From assembly GCF_030944625.1 (NCBI RefSeq), contig NZ_JAUSXY010000001.1, positions 682,001-746,000 of the forward strand: a DNA stretch of 64,000 bases. The letters are read 5' to 3'. The stretch is from Arthrobacter sp. SLBN-112 (GTDB lineage: Bacteria > Actinomycetota > Actinomycetes > Actinomycetales > Micrococcaceae). Under the pieces are notes generated by a model. The model did no database searches. It saw only the letters and a program-made list of their open reading frames with translations, and had not been told where the DNA came from. This document shows positions 2,450 to 46,808 of the stretch, one piece after another; position 1 is the first letter of the stretch, and each line of letters starts with the position of its first letter. The translations under genes and the position numbers were made by a program.

Positions 2450-3241
2450 TTAGTCGCTAAATGCGGTGCGGAACGCGGTGAGGGCCTCATTGCCGGCCGG
2501 CACGCTCTGGCCACCGGAAGCGGAGGCTTCCAGCCCTACGACACCTGAGTAGCCGCTGAGCCTGAGCGCCGCCGCGACGGCCTGGAAGTTGATTTCGCCT
2601 GTGCCTGGCTCAAATCGCCCCGGGACATCCGCAACTTGAACTTCTCCGATCCAAGGCAGCGCTGCCCGAACCGTCTCGATGAGGTTTCCTTCCCCGATCT
2701 GGGCGTGGTACAGGTCCAGCATCATCCTGATGTTGGGATGATCCACGGCGGAGACCAGAGTAAGGGTGTCCTTAGCGCGGGCCAGCGGTATGCCGGGGTG
2801 GTCAAGGGTCGTGTTCAGGTTCTCCAGGGCGAATGTCACATCGTTTTGCTCGCCCAGCATGGCCAATCGTTCGAGGGTGCGCAAGCCGGTAAGCCACATT
2901 TCCCCCGTGGCACGGTGCAGCGGTCGAACCGCATGACCGCCCTCCCCTAGTTCGGCCGGATGAATGACCATGCGTTCGATACCTAGTTCTGCTGCGGTCG
3001 GAATCAGCTTCTCTGCTGATGCAAGGACTTGGTCCGCGCTGTCCGGGTCGATGAGGCTTCCCCCGAAGTAGCCGCTCATTGAGGAAAAGCGCGCACCGGT
3101 GGCGGCCAGGGCATGGGTGTCCAGTCCGCGGGTATCCCACAGCTCTACCTCGAAGCCCTGTTCGTGAATCAGCTTCACCCGTTCGATCAATGGCAGTTCC
3201 CCGTACAGCATTTCGGCACAGACTGCTAGCCGGAAGCTCAT
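2450..3241 (-). CDS. Hydroxypyruvate-isomerase-like / sugar isomerase, TIM barrel
   Basis: This 263-residue protein belongs to the xylose-isomerase-like TIM-barrel superfamily (PF01261), closest in shape to Hyi/OtnI hydroxypyruvate isomerases. Visible family landmarks are FALENLNT (metal-ligand Glu), MMLDLYHAQ (Asp and His), a run with GRFEPGTGEINF typical of Hyi, and GLEAS near the C-terminus (second Glu ligand). Its ATG overlaps the stop of the upstream dehydrogenase by four bases (ATGA), so the two are translationally coupled. A 148-base gap without a clear gene separates it from the binding protein. Such pairs of Gfo/Idh/MocA dehydrogenase and TIM-barrel enzyme act in sequence on oxidised sugars or cyclitols. 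The exact reaction is unknown. Confidence 0.85.
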   Translation of the reverse strand: MSFRLAVCAEMLYGELPLIERVKLIHEQGFEVELWDTRGLDTHALAATGARFSSMSGYFGGSLIDPDSADQVLASAEKLIPTAAELGIERMVIHPAELGEGGHAVRPLHRATGEMWLTGLRTLERLAMLGEQNDVTFALENLNTTLDHPGIPLARAKDTLTLVSAVDHPNIRMMLDLYHAQIGEGNLIETVRAALPWIGEVQVADVPGRFEPGTGEINFQAVAAALRLSGYSGVVGLEASASGGQSVPAGNEALTAFRTAFSD

Positions 3242-4356
3242 GCAAGCTCCACTGCTGCATATGCTTCTGGCTGGGATGCCCGAAGGTTGGCAATCGCCGA
3301 AACGTCAACCGGTTGGCCAGTCTCCGCGGATCGGAAGGCCGCCAAGGCTACGGCGAGTGCGTTACGAGCGTCGATGCCTCGAGGGGCGCCGGCCGCCTGC
3401 TGGCGTCCGTCCCGGCCGGATTCCACTCCGGTTACGAACTCGGCCAGTTCGGCCGTATAGGCGTCGAAAAAAAGCTCAGTGTTCAATCGAACGGTGGCAG
3501 CGCCGATACCCGAGGACGTGTAACTGGTGGCGCTGGAATGTTGAGGTCCTCCAACGGTGATCATGCCTGCAGAGCCAAATACTTCACCCCGGACGTCATA
3601 GCCATACAGGGCGTTGAAGTTGGCTTCAGCCACTGCAATGGCACCGTTGCTGTAGGTAATGGTTACCACGGCGGTGTCCTGAAGGCCGTTCGGCCTAAGT
3701 TCAGGAGCCACTAGAGCATCCGCCACGGCATGTACACGAACGGGAACAGCGCCAGGATTGAGCCAATTGAGCGTGTCAAAATCGTGGATCAGGGTCTCGA
3801 GGAAGATCGTTCCAGGCGCTATGCGGCCGGCGTTCGCTAGACCTGAAGCGGATCCCGGGTCCCGGGTCAGGGAACGGAGCAGCTGTGGTGTTCCTACGGT
3901 GCCGTCGTCAACGAGTTTCTTGGCTGCCGCGAAATCCTTCGCATAGCGTCGGTTGAACCCGAACTGAATACCAACCCCTGCAGCCTGGACGGCTTCCAAT
4001 GCCTTGTCCAGTTCCTCCATATTGCGCGCCCCCGGCTTCTCGCAGAATACGTGTTTTCCCGCTTGAGCGCAGGCGGAGATCAAGTTGGCGTGGAAGCGCG
4101 CCGGCGCCGAGATGATGACGGCATCGATGTCGGGGTCATCGACCACGTCAGCGGGATCCGCGCTGACCTTACTGACGCCAAGTCTGGCCGCCAACGCATT
4201 TGCGACGGGAAAATCGGGGTCCGCGATTGCCTCTAATCGGGCATTAGGGATTCTGTGGACAACGGATTCGGCATGGAAACTTCCAATCCATCCAGCTCCG
4301 ATAAGTCCCAGACGAATGGGGCTGGCATCCATCACACGTTGGTGGATATAGGTCAT
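3238..4356 (-). CDS. Gfo/Idh/MocA family NAD(P)-dependent dehydrogenase
   Basis: The 372-residue product has an N-terminal Rossmann fold (GLIGAGWIGSFHAES, from about residue 15), the family motif CEKP (about residue 105) that presents the catalytic lysine, and the C-terminal alpha/beta substrate domain with the HDFDTLNWL segment containing the conserved DxxxH-type active-site region. Family members oxidise inositols, glucose, anhydrosugars and related polyols. ATG 4356 has a good AGGAG five to six bases upstream. It is the first gene of the minus-strand operon and faces the LacI gene across an intergenic region with two operator copies, so it is almost certainly repressed by that regulator. 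Inositol 2-dehydrogenase and levoglucosan-dehydrogenase-like activity are both possible. Confidence 0.88.
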   Translation of the reverse strand: MTYIHQRVMDASPIRLGLIGAGWIGSFHAESVVHRIPNARLEAIADPDFPVANALAARLGVSKVSADPADVVDDPDIDAVIISAPARFHANLISACAQAGKHVFCEKPGARNMEELDKALEAVQAAGVGIQFGFNRRYAKDFAAAKKLVDDGTVGTPQLLRSLTRDPGSASGLANAGRIAPGTIFLETLIHDFDTLNWLNPGAVPVRVHAVADALVAPELRPNGLQDTAVVTITYSNGAIAVAEANFNALYGYDVRGEVFGSAGMITVGGPQHSSATSYTSSGIGAATVRLNTELFFDAYTAELAEFVTGVESGRDGRQQAAGAPRGIDARNALAVALAAFRSAETGQPVDVSAIANLRASQPEAYAAVELA

Positions 4357-42057: not shown

Positions 42058-42261
42058 CTACCAGGCCTGGTGTTCCCGGGTGAGGCCGAAGGGAACCGTC
42101 TCGCTGAGGGAAACGGTGAATTTGTCCACGCCGTGCCGGGTGACGAGGATGCCGTGGCGCTCGCCAGTGAGTGCATGGGCCTTGGCGGCGGCGACGGCGG
42201 CGTCGAGTTCGCTGTCCATGCTCTGGCGGTCGGACACGGTCAGGGTCAGGGGGAAGTTCAT
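42058..42261 (-). CDS. Small conserved protein of unknown function (paralog of 7365..7583)
   Basis: A 67-residue protein; ATG 42261 has AAGG nine bases upstream. It is colinear with the 72-residue protein at 7365-7583: DRQSM, then an Ala-rich helix, HGILVTRHGVDKFTVSLSE and TVPFGLTREHQAW. Two divergent copies in separate contexts show that the family is under selection. The frame can be extended to 42510, but nothing supports the extra N-terminus. It is monocistronic, divergent from the glycosyltransferase-like genes. Function unknown. Confidence 0.75.
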   Translation of the reverse strand: MNFPLTLTVSDRQSMDSELDAAVAAAKAHALTGERHGILVTRHGVDKFTVSLSETVPFGLTREHQAW

Positions 42262-42430
42262 GTTGTGGTGCCTTATGTCTTTCGTGGGGCCGGGTGGGCA
42301 AAACGCCGCCCAGCGCTCCCCCTGGCTGCATAGGCGGTGGGCACTGACGTGCCTCGCACCATGGTGCCTGAGCAAATAAGAGCCAGCAACTTTAGATAAA
42401 TGCCGCAGGTCAGGCGCGCGGAGTTCAAGG

Positions 42431-42444
42431 ATTGTCCTGACAAT
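42431..42444. promoter_or_regulatory. 14-base palindrome in divergent intergenic region
   Basis: ATTGTC-CT-GACAAT is a perfect palindrome in the 332-base space between the small gene (minus) and the first glycosyltransferase-like gene (plus). It resembles sites of GntR-type regulators but no such gene is adjacent. The remaining intergenic sequence shows nothing I can support. Confidence 0.4.
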
Positions 42445-42593
42445 TATTGGCGGAGATGCGCCGTGAATTAGAGTTGAACAGGACTGGAACCCGAAATTCA
42501 AGGCCTCCAATCCCCATGAGACCCGCTTCGGGGCATGACCCGAGCCATTTTGCGCCGCCGCTGACTGTGCAACGACCTGACAAGGAATCCGCC

Positions 42594-43910
42594 ATTTCCA
42601 CCGACGCTCTCTTCGGCAACCTCACCCGGATCCGCGATGTCATCCTTCCCGCCAGGGTGCGGGCGGCGCTGAACAGCGGGCGCGGGCTGCTGGGCGGCTT
42701 CATCGTGGTGCACCTGGTCTTCCTGGTGTTCGGCGCGTCCCTGTCCCTGCGCGGCGAGGCCTTCAGCGACACCTTCATCTACCGCGAGTGGGCCATGGCC
42801 GGCTTCAACGACGCGAACCTCTCCGGCGGCCCCAGCCCCTGGGTCTACCCCATCCTGGCCTTGATTCCCATGGCCATCGCCGGGGTGGCAGGACCTGGCC
42901 CGTTCTTCTTACTCTGGGTCCTCATGACCACACTCCTCAACGGCTGGGCGCTGCTGAAACTCACCGGGCGGGGCCGCAACTCCAATGCCATCCCCGCCGG
43001 CTGGTGGTGGCTGGCATTCACGTTCCTGATGGGCTGGCTGGGATTCGCCCGCGTTGACGGCCTCACCGCTCCGCTGGTCCTGGTGGCCCTGGCGTATGGC
43101 GTCCAGCGCCCGTTCGTCGCCTCGATCCTGCTGGCAGTCGGCACCTGGGTCAAGGTGTGGCCGGCAGCCATCATGCTTGCCCTCTTTGCCGTCGTGAAGA
43201 ACCGCCTGCTGGTGGTGCTGGCAGGAATAGCCGCGACGGCAGGCGTCGTGGCGCTGGCGGCAGCCCTGGGCAGCGTCCCCAAGCTCCTGAACTTCCTCAC
43301 GCAGCAGGGCGACCGCGGCATGCAGCTCGAGGCCACCTTCACCACCCCCTGGCTCTGGCTGTCCGTCCTGAACATTGGAGGCTCCCGGATGTACATGAAC
43401 ACGGACATCAACTCCATGCAGGTGGACGGCCCCGGCACCGCCGTCATGTCCGTGCTGATGCAGCCGCTCCTGGTCCTGGCCGCCCTGCTGGTGGCCGGGC
43501 TGACGTTCTGGGCGCTCCACAACGGAAAGCAGCACAAGGTGGCCGGCGGCGTTGACCGCACCGAACTGCTCCTCGCCGGCGCCCTGACCCTTGCCACCGC
43601 CTTCGTGGTGTTCAACAAGGTGGGATCCCCGCAATTCATGGTGTGGCTCGGACCCGCCGTCGCCGTCGGCCTGGCACACAGCTGGCGCGAATGGCGCGTC
43701 CCGGCAGCGATGCTGATCGCCATCGCCGTGGCCACCTACTTCATCTACCCGCTCTTCTACGACGCCCTCAGCCACAACAACCCATGGATGGCGCTGGTGC
43801 TGACCATCCGCAACGTCCTGCTGGTGGTCCTGTTCCTGTGGAGCGTCCGGCGCCTGTACTCGCTGGGCAAGAAGACCGCAGCACCCGCCCCCGCGCTCAA
43901 GGAGACCTGA
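42594..43910 (+). CDS. Polytopic glycosyltransferase-like membrane protein (GT87/DUF2029 type), ATT start
   Basis: The 438-residue product has about ten hydrophobic segments and the acidic loop EAFSDTFIYREWAMAGF after the first, typical of GT-C enzymes that use polyprenol-phosphate sugars outside the membrane. The frame is open to TTG 42447, but the only ribosome-binding site, AAGGA at 42583, lies seven bases before an ATT codon at 42594. Similarity to the downstream paralog also begins exactly there (IST at both). I therefore start it at ATT, a rare initiation codon. Together with the paralog and MptB next door, a role in polymannose/lipoglycan synthesis is likely but unproven. Confidence 0.8.
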   Translation: MSTDALFGNLTRIRDVILPARVRAALNSGRGLLGGFIVVHLVFLVFGASLSLRGEAFSDTFIYREWAMAGFNDANLSGGPSPWVYPILALIPMAIAGVAGPGPFFLLWVLMTTLLNGWALLKLTGRGRNSNAIPAGWWWLAFTFLMGWLGFARVDGLTAPLVLVALAYGVQRPFVASILLAVGTWVKVWPAAIMLALFAVVKNRLLVVLAGIAATAGVVALAAALGSVPKLLNFLTQQGDRGMQLEATFTTPWLWLSVLNIGGSRMYMNTDINSMQVDGPGTAVMSVLMQPLLVLAALLVAGLTFWALHNGKQHKVAGGVDRTELLLAGALTLATAFVVFNKVGSPQFMVWLGPAVAVGLAHSWREWRVPAAMLIAIAVATYFIYPLFYDALSHNNPWMALVLTIRNVLLVVLFLWSVRRLYSLGKKTAAPAPALKET

Positions 43911-43911
43911 G

Positions 43912-45195
43912 ATTTCCACGAGGTTCTTTGACCGCCTGGTGACGGTCCGCAGCAAAGTCCTCCCGGCCACGGTGGTGGACTGGTTCGCCCGCCCCTCCAG
44001 CGTCTGGTGGGGCTTCGCCGTCGTGCACGTGTATTTCCTGGGCTGGATGGCATCCTTCTTCCTGAACGGCAATACGTTCAGCGACACCGAGCAATACCGG
44101 CAGTGGGCCATGGAGGGCTACAACCCGGCGGACCTGACCGGCAAGATCAGCCCCTGGGTCTACCCGGTCCTGGCGCAGATCCCCATTTTCCTCGCGAACG
44201 TCGCCGGCCCCGGCCTCTACCTGCTGGCATGGTTCCTGATCATCACGGCGCTCAACGCCGTCGGCCTGCTCTACCTCACCCGCGGACCACGGACTGTGAC
44301 CGGTGTTGCTCCGGCCTGGTGGTGGCTGTTCTTCACGGTCTTCATGGGCTACCTCAGCTTCGCCCGGGTGGAAGGCATCACCGCCCCGATCGTGCTGATC
44401 GCGCTGCTCTACGTGGCGGAGCGGCCCGTCGTGGCAGGCGTCCTGCTCAGCATCGCCACCTGGATCAAGGTGTGGCCTGCGGCCGTGCTCGTGCCCATCG
44501 TGATCGCCAGCCACAAGCGGGTCCAGGTGGTGCTCACCGGCGCCGCCGTGACCGCCGTCGTCTGCCTGGGGACCTGGCTGACCGGCGGCCTGCCGCACAT
44601 CATGGACTTCCTCACCAACCAGGGCGAGCGCGGCATGCAGCTCGAGGCCACGTTCTCCACCCCCTGGGTCTGGCTGAGCGTCTTCCACATCGCGGGCTCC
44701 AAAATGGCGGACAACACGGCCATCAACTCCACCGAGGTCTACGGCCCCGGGGCCGACGTGGCCGCGTTCCTCATGCAGCCGCTGCTCATCCTCGCCGCCC
44801 TTGGCGCTGCCATCCTGCTGGTGCGTGCCCTGCGGCGCGGCGCCGAGCGGGAGGAGCTGTTCCTTGAAGGCGCCCTGATGATGGTCACCGCGTTCATCGT
44901 CTTCAACAAGGTGGGCTCCCCGCAGTTCATCATCTGGCTGGCACCGGTGATCATCGCGGGCCTGACGCACGACTGGGAGCGCTGGAAGGTCCCGGCAGCG
45001 TTGCTGATGGGCATCGCCATGACCACGTTCGTGATCTACCCGCTGTTCTACACGCCGCTCATCCACGCCCACCCGGTCATGGCGGCCATCCTCACCACCC
45101 GCAACGTGCTCTTCGTGGTGCTGCTGTGGTGGTCGGTGAAGCGCACCGCGGAGCTCGGCCGGAAGACCACCGCGCAGGTACCGGCAGGAGCCTAG
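43912..45195 (+). CDS. Polytopic glycosyltransferase-like membrane protein, tandem paralog, ATT start
   Basis: The 427-residue product is colinear with the preceding protein throughout: VVHVYFLGWMASFF for VVHLVFLVFGASLS, SPWVYPVLAQIPI for SPWVYPILALIPM, RGMQLEATFSTPWVWLSV for RGMQLEATFTTPWLWLSV. AAGGAG lies seven bases before ATT 43912, one base after the upstream stop, and no ATG or GTG with a ribosome-binding site exists before GTG 43939, which would remove conserved residues. So it, too, appears to initiate at ATT. The gene is cotranscribed with its paralog and overlaps the end of the convergent mptB gene by four bases. Confidence 0.82.
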   Translation: MSTRFFDRLVTVRSKVLPATVVDWFARPSSVWWGFAVVHVYFLGWMASFFLNGNTFSDTEQYRQWAMEGYNPADLTGKISPWVYPVLAQIPIFLANVAGPGLYLLAWFLIITALNAVGLLYLTRGPRTVTGVAPAWWWLFFTVFMGYLSFARVEGITAPIVLIALLYVAERPVVAGVLLSIATWIKVWPAAVLVPIVIASHKRVQVVLTGAAVTAVVCLGTWLTGGLPHIMDFLTNQGERGMQLEATFSTPWVWLSVFHIAGSKMADNTAINSTEVYGPGADVAAFLMQPLLILAALGAAILLVRALRRGAEREELFLEGALMMVTAFIVFNKVGSPQFIIWLAPVIIAGLTHDWERWKVPAALLMGIAMTTFVIYPLFYTPLIHAHPVMAAILTTRNVLFVVLLWWSVKRTAELGRKTTAQVPAGA

Positions 45196-46808
45196 GGGGC
45201 TTCGGAGCGGTCGACGGCGGCACGGGCCTCGGCCCGGCGCGCAGCCCGGCGGTCCACCGCCCACTTCCAGGCGCGCCGCGCCACATCCAGCGGTTTCCCT
45301 TCGATCAGCAGTTTCCGGGTGTGGACATCCAGGACCAGCAGGTAGAACGTGAAGGCCAGGGCGGTGAAGAACGCCATGGATGAGGCGTCGATGGGCAGCT
45401 CCACGAAGGACCAGACCGAGAGCTGGTCCTGGGCGCCGAACACCACGAAGAACGTCACGCCCACATAGAGCGACCGGATCTGCCAGTCGTCCCGGATGCC
45501 GGTGACGGCCAGGAACGGCAGGAACCACAGGATGTACCAGGGCTGGATGATGGGTGAGAGCATGACGACGGCGGTGAACGCCAGGGCCATCCGGCGCACC
45601 GCCCGCGAGTAGTCGCCGCGGAACATCAGCAGCAGCACCAGCCCGATGGCGGCCCACTTCATGCCGGTCCGCAGGAAGGTGGCCAGCGTCCCGCCCGGCA
45701 GGCCCAGCGCGTTGGCAAGCATCTCCACCTGCTGGCCCAGGAACCCTGACGGCGAATAGCCCGTGTAGCCCGGGGTAGGGTCCATGATGGCCCAGGTCCA
45801 GCCGATGCCCAGGTTGAACGGGATGCCGCTGAGCGCCAGGACGCCAAAGCTGATGGCCGCCGTCGCAGCCCACGTGAGGAACTTGCGCGGCCAGGTGGCG
45901 CCCGGGCCGGCCCACATCAGGCCGATGAACGGCAGCAGCAGCACCGTGATGGGCTTGATGCCGATGGAGGCGGTCACCAGGAGGATGCCCAGGAGGTACC
46001 GGCGGGTTGCGGCCAGGTACACCCCGGCGACGGCGAGCCCCACCATCAGGGCGTCGTTGTGGGCGCTGGCGATGAAACTGATCAGGAACAACGGGTTGGC
46101 CACGGAAACCCAGAGTGCGCGCGCCCCGTTGATGCCGTGCAGCTCGGCGAGCTTGGGCACGTAGATGACGCAGAGCAGCACGCCGACGCCGGCCAGCAAC
46201 CGGAAGAGCAGGACCGATGCGTCCGGCTGCGCGCCGGTCAGTCCCACCACCCCGCGCGCCAGCCATAGGAAGTAGGGGCCGTAGGGTGTGCGGTTTTCCG
46301 CCCAGGCGGGGTCGGCTCCAAGGGCAAACCAGTTGTTGAGGGTGGAGATGCCCACCTCGTAGGGGTTCTGGCCTTCCATCACCAGCCGGCCCTGGCCCGT
46401 GTAGGCGTAGACGTCGCGGGAGAAGACTGGAACACAGAAAAGCAGGGGCAGGGACCAGGCGGAGATGGCTGCCACCACGGACCGCAGCGACGATTGGCCC
46501 CAGTCCCCCAGCCGCTGGCCCAGCCGCAGCCAGGAGCGCATCAGCAGCATGGCCCCGGCGGTCAACAGCACCGTGGATACTGCTACGCCCCAGCCCTCGG
46601 TGCGGAGCGCGATCACCACGGGCTGGCGGATCATCGGCGAGCCGTTGGCGATCCAGCCGGTGCCGGTGGAGCCGACGAACATCATGAGGGCGCCAATAAA
46701 ACCTTCGATGGTTGCCAGGTAGGCGCGGCCCTTGGCAGGCGCGGAGGCGTCGGCCGGTTCGCCCGGCCGGCTGTCCGAAGTCCTGAGGTGTGACCCGCCT
46801 GCCGTCAT
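45192..46808 (-). CDS. mptB: Polyprenol-phosphate-mannose-dependent alpha-(1->6) mannosyltransferase (MptB-like)
   Basis: A 538-residue GT-C membrane enzyme with 12 or more hydrophobic segments. The catalytic-loop motif FSRDVYAYTGQGRLVMEGQN followed by PYEVG after the third helix is the signature of the MptA/MptB family, which extends the mannan core of lipomannan and related lipoglycans in actinobacteria using polyprenyl-phosphomannose. Further hallmarks are NRTPYGPYFLWLARG and SFIASAHNDALMVGLAV. AGGGGA lies about 11 bases before ATG 46808. Convergence with two smaller GT-C-like genes suggests a lipoglycan synthesis cluster. Confidence 0.87.
   Translation of the reverse strand: MTAGGSHLRTSDSRPGEPADASAPAKGRAYLATIEGFIGALMMFVGSTGTGWIANGSPMIRQPVVIALRTEGWGVAVSTVLLTAGAMLLMRSWLRLGQRLGDWGQSSLRSVVAAISAWSLPLLFCVPVFSRDVYAYTGQGRLVMEGQNPYEVGISTLNNWFALGADPAWAENRTPYGPYFLWLARGVVGLTGAQPDASVLLFRLLAGVGVLLCVIYVPKLAELHGINGARALWVSVANPLFLISFIASAHNDALMVGLAVAGVYLAATRRYLLGILLVTASIGIKPITVLLLPFIGLMWAGPGATWPRKFLTWAATAAISFGVLALSGIPFNLGIGWTWAIMDPTPGYTGYSPSGFLGQQVEMLANALGLPGGTLATFLRTGMKWAAIGLVLLLMFRGDYSRAVRRMALAFTAVVMLSPIIQPWYILWFLPFLAVTGIRDDWQIRSLYVGVTFFVVFGAQDQLSVWSFVELPIDASSMAFFTALAFTFYLLVLDVHTRKLLIEGKPLDVARRAWKWAVDRRAARRAEARAAVDRSEAP

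Follow-up and report, generated by a model that had tools for sequence, protein, structure and literature searches.

A tandem pair of glycosyltransferase genes

The stretch of DNA analysed here, referred to as the window, comprises 64,000 nucleotides (nt) of Arthrobacter sp. SLBN-112 (contig NZ_JAUSXY010000001.1, positions 682,001 to 746,000) and harbours two tandem genes, gene 1 and gene 2, which encode predicted membrane glycosyltransferases and appear to start at ATT codons, read as AUU in the mRNA (Table 1). The description of the pair as tandem membrane-protein paralogs in the initial annotation was borne out, as both proteins match family GT87 (PF09594; E 9.4e-10 and 39.1 bits for gene 1, E 2.6e-07 and 31.1 bits for gene 2, both above the gathering cut-off of 25 bits) and are 52% identical over 434 alignment columns. 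Their similarity had been said to begin at the ATT codon, and the local alignment indeed starts from residue 1 of both proteins (IST/IST). Gene 2 ends at position 45195, well past 43930, where the span given earlier had ended. A search of the same genome at E 1e-3 found no GT87 homologs beyond the tandem pair.

Table 1 Features of the GT87 gene pair and its surroundings, in positions of the window (SD, Shine-Dalgarno sequence; aa, amino acids)
Feature	Position	Strand	Remarks
SD of gene 1	42582..42586	+	AAGGA; 7 nt (ATCCGCC) before ATT; TCCACC after ATT
Gene 1	42594..43910	+	GT87 membrane glycosyltransferase, 438 aa; start ATT 42594-42596, stop TGA 43908-43910
SD of gene 2	43899..43904	+	AAGGAG, within the last gene 1 codons; 7 nt (ACCTGAG) before ATT; TCCACG after ATT
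Stop codon of gene 1	43908..43910	+	TGA, 1 nt before the gene 2 ATT; likely translational coupling
Gene 2	43912..45195	+	GT87 membrane glycosyltransferase, 427 aa; start ATT 43912-43914, stop TAG
In-frame GTG, rival start of gene 1	42567..42569	+	Nine codons before ATT; no SD by eye; judged unused
GTG, codon 10 of gene 2	43939..43941	+	Database start (418 aa), record P0001 begins there; judged wrong
Convergent neighbour	45192..46808	-	MptA/MptB-like mannosyltransferase homolog; NF038066 and TIGR03459 profiles

Start sites in the genome

Both start sites share the layout first pointed out in the initial annotation, with an SD exactly seven bases before the ATT and TCCAC directly after it. The accompanying statement that no nearby ATG, GTG or TTG codon (hereafter NTG) has a usable ribosome-binding site also agrees with inspection: the open frame upstream of gene 1 contains TTG 42447, ATG 42516 and GTG 42567, the first NTG in the gene 2 frame is GTG 43939, and no SD could be seen by eye before any of them. 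Within this genome alone, the case for ATT is made by the placement of the SD and the lack of an NTG that has one, and it is the conservation in relatives, described below, that lifts the two starts above chance. On both strands of the window, an ATT behind an SD of at least 5 bases that opens at least 300 codons occurs at 2 of 738 sites, exactly these two. However, control trinucleotides reach similar rates by chance under the same filter (ATC 8/1857, CTG 11/2736, GTT 3/1594, ACT 1/996), and this count was therefore not used as evidence.

Genome-wide, the strict pattern AAGGAG-N7-ATT occurs nine times, against seven for the backwards control. Of the nine sites, that of gene 2 alone leads into a long frame (427 codons); behind the others, the frame stays open for 4 to 116 codons. 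A broader filter for SD and coding was applied to 395 kb of the genome (20 stretches, about 9%, one picked to include infC, the gene of initiation factor 3 (IF3)), the rest being scanned with the strict pattern, which misses gene 1 and infC. Thirteen ATT sites in the sample passed, and by judgement infC was the only convincing further case, the 12 others being regarded as internal or as lying beside an ordinary NTG; 64 ATC sites passed as well, the individual judgement covering the ATT sites. Sequencing error was rejected as a source of the ATT starts, as many separate assemblies agree.

Start codons in close relatives

The alignment of orthologs proposed in the initial annotation, as a check on ATT and its spacing from the SD, was made for 81 loci, namely 80 named relatives (the best 80 of 115) and the window. 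Gene 2 could be aligned from residue 1 in 77 of the 81 loci, all of which have AUU or AUC at the start (75 ATT, 2 ATC), while the 66 loci in which gene 1 aligned in this way comprise 57 ATT, 5 ATC, 2 ATG and 2 GTG, so that 62 carry AUU or AUC. Four gene 2 rows were left out (L099, judged ATG; L110, judged ATT; L105 and L112, with no start call), as were 15 gene 1 rows (14 with hand-judged ATG, GTG or TTG starts, and L099, with no start call). The SD is kept in front of this column. Upstream of gene 2, A occupies position -13 in 99% and positions -12 to -8 are invariant (100%) in the 77 relatives, with less strict conservation in more distant copies, and upstream of gene 1 the commonest base at positions -12 to -8 has a frequency of 0.86-0.97 in the 66 relatives. 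In both genes, most copies also retain TCC as the second codon.

As the start column switches among ATT, ATC, ATG and GTG behind the same SD, it behaves as a start codon. Its codon usage also differs from that of isoleucine elsewhere in these genes, where ATC prevails and ATT accounts for 13.5% and 12.7% of internal isoleucine codons in the two genes, or about 13%. In the start column, ATT makes up 97.3% of the isoleucine codons in 75 sequences of gene 2 and 91.5% in 63 sequences of gene 1, whereas the highest ATT share in other columns with at least 90% isoleucine is 36% for gene 2 (15 columns) and 26.7% for gene 1 (5 columns). Together, these comparisons strongly support ATT as the conserved start codon of both genes, and the case for a conserved, unannotated pair of AUU starts is convincing on comparative grounds.

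Upstream sequence

An alternative for gene 1 is that translation begins at the GTG, TTG or ATG nine codons upstream, perhaps on a leaderless transcript, and that the ATT is an internal isoleucine codon. An NTG is present at that position in 35 of the 66 relatives, and the frame is open from there to the ATT in 59 of 66; yet 31 relatives have no NTG there, 7 have an in-frame stop at or after the position, and no SD is seen by eye. Moreover, positions -45 to -19 show no codon periodicity across the 66 relatives, whereas the first codons do, and the predominance of ATC among internal isoleucine codons argues against an internal ATT. The last 18 bases before the gene 1 start are uneven by codon position (4614/2519/3298), which is explained by the conservation of the SD itself. 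We consider the upstream start very improbable.

Among gene 2 copies with ATT or ATC, 59 of 91 have no upstream NTG in the examined sequence, and in 11 of 91 a stop interrupts the frame within the six codons before the start. The corresponding values for gene 1 are 28 of 87 and 1 of 87, and with a single such stop the upstream stops cannot settle the gene 1 start. At locus L037, with a spacer shorter by one base, a stop in frame five codons before the start rules out any start further up. The SD stands at a fixed distance from the start with no sign of coding upstream of it; for gene 1, where the upstream frame is open in most relatives, the argument combines the missing periodicity with the absence of an SD further up. 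Orthologs with ATG or GTG starts and conserved upstream coding sequence had been named beforehand as the outcome that would speak against ATT. What is found instead is that NTG starts lie mostly at, or a few codons from, the same place behind the SD, and that the region from -45 to -19 lacks periodicity.

Database records and the start of gene 2

The gene 2 proteins in the databases begin elsewhere. Of 1391 matches, 120 records were listed, and none of these reaches 427 aa: 76 have 418 aa, 31 have 405-408 aa, 2 have 396 aa and 11 have other lengths. The record of the window itself (P0001) starts at GTG 43939 and lacks the first 9 residues. The six records examined all start after the ATT codon; in two, the difference amounts to just about two residues.

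Taken at face value, the many records of 418 aa, like P0001, and of 405-408 aa would favour a start of gene 2 at the GTG of codon 10 (or at GTG 21/22), with the ATT and its SD being incidental. However, the lengths come in steps (418, 405-408, 396), as expected if gene callers pick whichever NTG exists, and the GTG of codon 10 has no SD by eye and is absent from many orthologs in which SD and ATT are intact. A start there would also cut a predicted N-terminal helix (residues 3-16). This alternative is highly improbable in our view, and the databases are judged to start the gene 2 proteins in the wrong place, because the genes almost certainly begin at the ATT kept by many relatives. The comparison thereby exposes an annotation error, which among the 120 listed of 1391 records mostly leaves proteins of 418 or 405-408 aa.

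The junction between the genes

Among the 93 gene 2 copies with ATT or ATC, 87 have the stop codon of gene 1 itself exactly 1 nt ahead of their start; in the remaining 6, the gene 1 frame ended elsewhere (5) or there was no start candidate (1). A looser count, accepting any stop codon 1 nt before the start, gives 91 of 91, and the own-frame count is preferred. This stop-start geometry suggests that gene 2 is translationally coupled to gene 1 by re-initiation.

The same junction could give rise to a frameshift fusion, in which gene 2 would be made as an extension of gene 1 and not by initiation at ATT, since the genes lie 1 nt apart in different frames. Yet the SD retains its proper distance from the start, gene 2 has its own ATG start in L132 and L138-L140, and gene 1, with no evident gene before it on its strand, shows the same ATT layout. 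A fusion is thus extremely improbable.

No conserved RNA structure of substance was found at the gene 2 start, where RNAalifold on 20 sequences returned only a 4-pair hairpin (-1.38 kcal/mol) with no two-sided changes. Base pairing is possible between GGAG of the gene 2 SD and the UUCC close behind the start (43901-43919), with no covariation. The SD is predicted to be unpaired at 21% for gene 2 and 40% for gene 1, with mean minimum free energies of -16.1 and -7.9, values that come without a shuffled control.

Distribution and variation of the start codon

Matches to the pair at E 1e-20 are found in 106 of 198 genomes of the genus and in 123 of 295 genomes of the family, across 13 of 32 genera, although true orthology is uncertain for the distant matches, at about 45% identity. 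The distribution is patchy, as 92 of the 198 same-genus genomes have no match at this threshold. With 58 further loci added, there were 256 copies, of which 30 were removed because their proteins duplicated others; one short copy remained outside the FastTree phylogeny (225 of 226 included). Start labels were assigned to 218 copies, 52 by hand (some on rows dropped as duplicates) and the rest by a rule preferring the homologous position; 7 copies stayed unlabelled.

The labelled copies comprise 156 ATT, 25 ATC and 37 NTG, giving AUU or AUC in 181 of 218. The tree needs 16 changes among these three states, and 7 changes between ATT/ATC and NTG. Both paralogs start at ATT in 56 of 102 loci with both unique copies, over several genera, and the pair with its AUU start is older than one genome suggests. 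The initial annotation had proposed that the duplicated pair keeps ATT; the retention in both genes holds, while a strict retention of ATT does not, and because ATC occurs in 25 of 218 copies the conserved feature is AUU/AUC rather than ATT itself.

In gene 1, ATC is typical of genus g24, and ATG or GTG of Kocuria genomes. The start region of gene 2 in L136 reads AGGAG-CTCTAAG-ATT, and some single-copy relatives in genus g7 (L156, L163-L165) have ATT TCC ATC after an SD. Stop codons interrupt the gene 2 frame in L071 (Arthrobacter sp. Hiyo8, 3001-4260), and the frame of gene 1 ends away from gene 2 in L049, L051, L053, L071 and L094; sequencing error or decay may account for either.

infC and other AUU-started genes

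The infC gene of this genome has the start region AGGAG-CTTTAAC-ATT, and an ATT behind AGGAG stands at the homologous place in all 30 same-family genomes inspected, which were chosen among those with GT87 matches and include this genome (L113 = G000:C1:3589473-3592682, L187-L215). Many infC frames hold an NTG further up, and the start is placed by SD and homology. On this comparison, infC of these genomes appears to start at ATT, and AUU initiation seems to be used in these organisms. The infC ATT persists also where the GT87 start is ATC, ATG or GTG, so the GT87 start does not simply follow that of infC.

It could be argued that AUU is the start codon of the pair and yet has no regulatory role, a good SD being sufficient and the codon persisting by inertia after an early change. 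The small number of changes between ATT/ATC and NTG on the tree (7 among 218 labelled copies) and the tolerance of ATC in 25 copies and of NTG in 37 fit such inertia. Against it, ATG is only one substitution away, AUU is kept by both paralogs and infC uses the same codon; in addition, the third base of the gene 2 start is T in 97% of the 77 relatives, compared with 62-81% conservation at spacer positions -7, -6, -3 and -1. We regard the absence of a regulatory role as rather unlikely.

Several known genes offer comparison. In Escherichia coli, the AUU start of infC serves autocontrol by IF3 (Butler et al. 1987, cited in PMC1780047), and that of pcnB limits translation (Binns and Masters 2002, cited in PMC1780047). 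Like infC, the GT87 pair keeps its AUU over genera; unlike infC, which is regulated by its own product, the GT87 genes would be putative targets at most. The pcnB gene resembles the pair in being no initiation factor gene, although the limiting of translation has been shown for pcnB, a single gene, whereas the GT87 genes form a tandem pair in which the second paralog begins at a stop-start junction. In Staphylococcus aureus, cvfC1 (AUU), ccpN (AUA) and citZ (AUA) combine a non-canonical start with a strong SD; the starts of cvfC1 and ccpN are conserved over species, that of citZ is confined to one lineage, and AUU/AUA reporters gave about 10% of AUG output in poor medium (PMC13009471). While the non-canonical start, the SD and, for cvfC1 and ccpN, the conservation are shared with the GT87 pair, these are Firmicutes genes with an extended SD and measured output, and the GT87 genes have ordinary AAGGA and AAGGAG motifs and are known from sequence. 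Finally, pncA (bbe22) of Borrelia burgdorferi was assigned an AUU start via genetics, biochemistry and structure (PMC13398362) and, like the GT87 proteins, is an enzyme listed in truncated form in databases; the GT87 start, in turn, is based on comparative genomics.

Conserved AUU or AUA starts are already known (infC, pcnB, cvfC1, ccpN). To our knowledge, however, apart from infC, few bacterial genes are known to have retained an AUU start across many species. Searches of open-access literature on start codons listed no report of such a gene in Actinobacteria and nothing on ATT starts in Arthrobacter, most subscription papers being outside this coverage.

Predicted fold of the gene products

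Structural modelling of a GT87 protein gave a GT-C fold as in PimE, a mycobacterial GT-C mannosyltransferase (PMC12041525), and the products of both genes are classed, by prediction, as GT-C/GT87 membrane glycosyltransferases. PimE-like enzymes have a catalytic aspartate after the first transmembrane helix; the invariant D58 of the GT87 protein follows helix 28-51 in a weakly modelled region, and its equivalence to D58 of PimE is at most putative. A Foldseek search gave two matches at E <=0.001, a glycosylphosphatidylinositol (GPI) transamidase subunit (8imx_U) and GPI mannosyltransferase I (9wno_A). The 50 Foldseek rows shown did not include PimE, the likeness to which came from the VIA second look. 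PimE differs from the GT87 proteins in sequence (14% identity) and lacks the tandem, AUU-started arrangement of their genes. The only hit of gene 2 in a sequence search of solved structures, a weak match to a designed protein (E 4.5e-05), was judged irrelevant. The products are probably polyprenol-phosphomannose-dependent mannosyltransferases of the PimE kind, with mannose as the presumed sugar.

A proposed model of weak initiation

We propose, with considerable confidence in the reading as a whole, that the two genes start at AUU with weak initiation of the class subject to IF3, that gene 2 is coupled to gene 1, and that PimE-like mannosyltransferases are thereby made at a low level. The SD seven bases upstream would place the 30S subunit on the AUU of either gene, where the initiator tRNA would pair imperfectly (a mismatch in the P site), so that initiation would be slow and weak and, as for infC, of the class discriminated against by IF3. 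Gene 1 would be initiated de novo, while gene 2 would be initiated by the same means, mainly by ribosomes that have just finished gene 1, whose stop lies one base before the AUU. The products would probably mannosylate an envelope glycolipid resembling lipomannan, while the low level of the pair would be due to its weak start. The suggestion of the initial annotation that ATT serves low or IF3-sensitive translation is plausible, given the apparent retention of ATT by infC in these genomes and the similar behaviour of analogues elsewhere (PMC13009471, PMC1780047).

Several points weigh against this proposal. The start is placed by comparison, and nothing was found that links IF3 to these genes. 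The relatives were gathered with an AUU-started query, include many close kin and were labelled with a preference for the homologous position; for these reasons the start counts are not independent, and, given the query and the labels, the tree describes rather than tests. An ordinary NTG start in 37 of the 218 labelled copies means that AUU is not indispensable. On the tree, the start column changes between ATT and ATC 9 times, fewer than two comparable isoleucine columns (24 and 18) but more than the third (6). In gene 1, an NTG precedes the ATT by nine codons in 35 of 66 relatives, a stop within six codons upstream is present in a single ATT/ATC copy of 87, and 28 of these 87 copies are free of upstream NTGs in the examined sequence. 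Lastly, the structure model is weak around D58, with a predicted local distance difference test score (pLDDT) of 50-57 for residues 51-80.

It could further be speculated that Micrococcaceae have an IF3 regulon, with AUU retained by infC and an envelope-mannosyltransferase operon alike, so that the IF3 level sets glycolipid mannosylation along with translation capacity and gene 2 acts as a read-out of gene 1 termination; we regard this extension as tentative and possible rather than probable. A tandem pair keeping AUU/AUC provides a natural system for studying the purpose of weak initiation and whether IF3 acts on any target other than itself.

Neighbouring sequence

A scan of positions 42240-42640 found no sigma-70 promoter. 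Upstream of and divergent from gene 1, a small open reading frame of 67 aa (42061-42261, minus strand) has no match in Pfam or NCBIfam. Neither Pfam at 0.001 nor a sequence search of solved structures gave a match for the convergent neighbour of gene 2. Its score with the MptA profile TIGR03459, 194.1 bits, is below the cut-off of 439.4, and its score with the MptB profile NF038066 is 94.1 bits, against a cut-off of 40.
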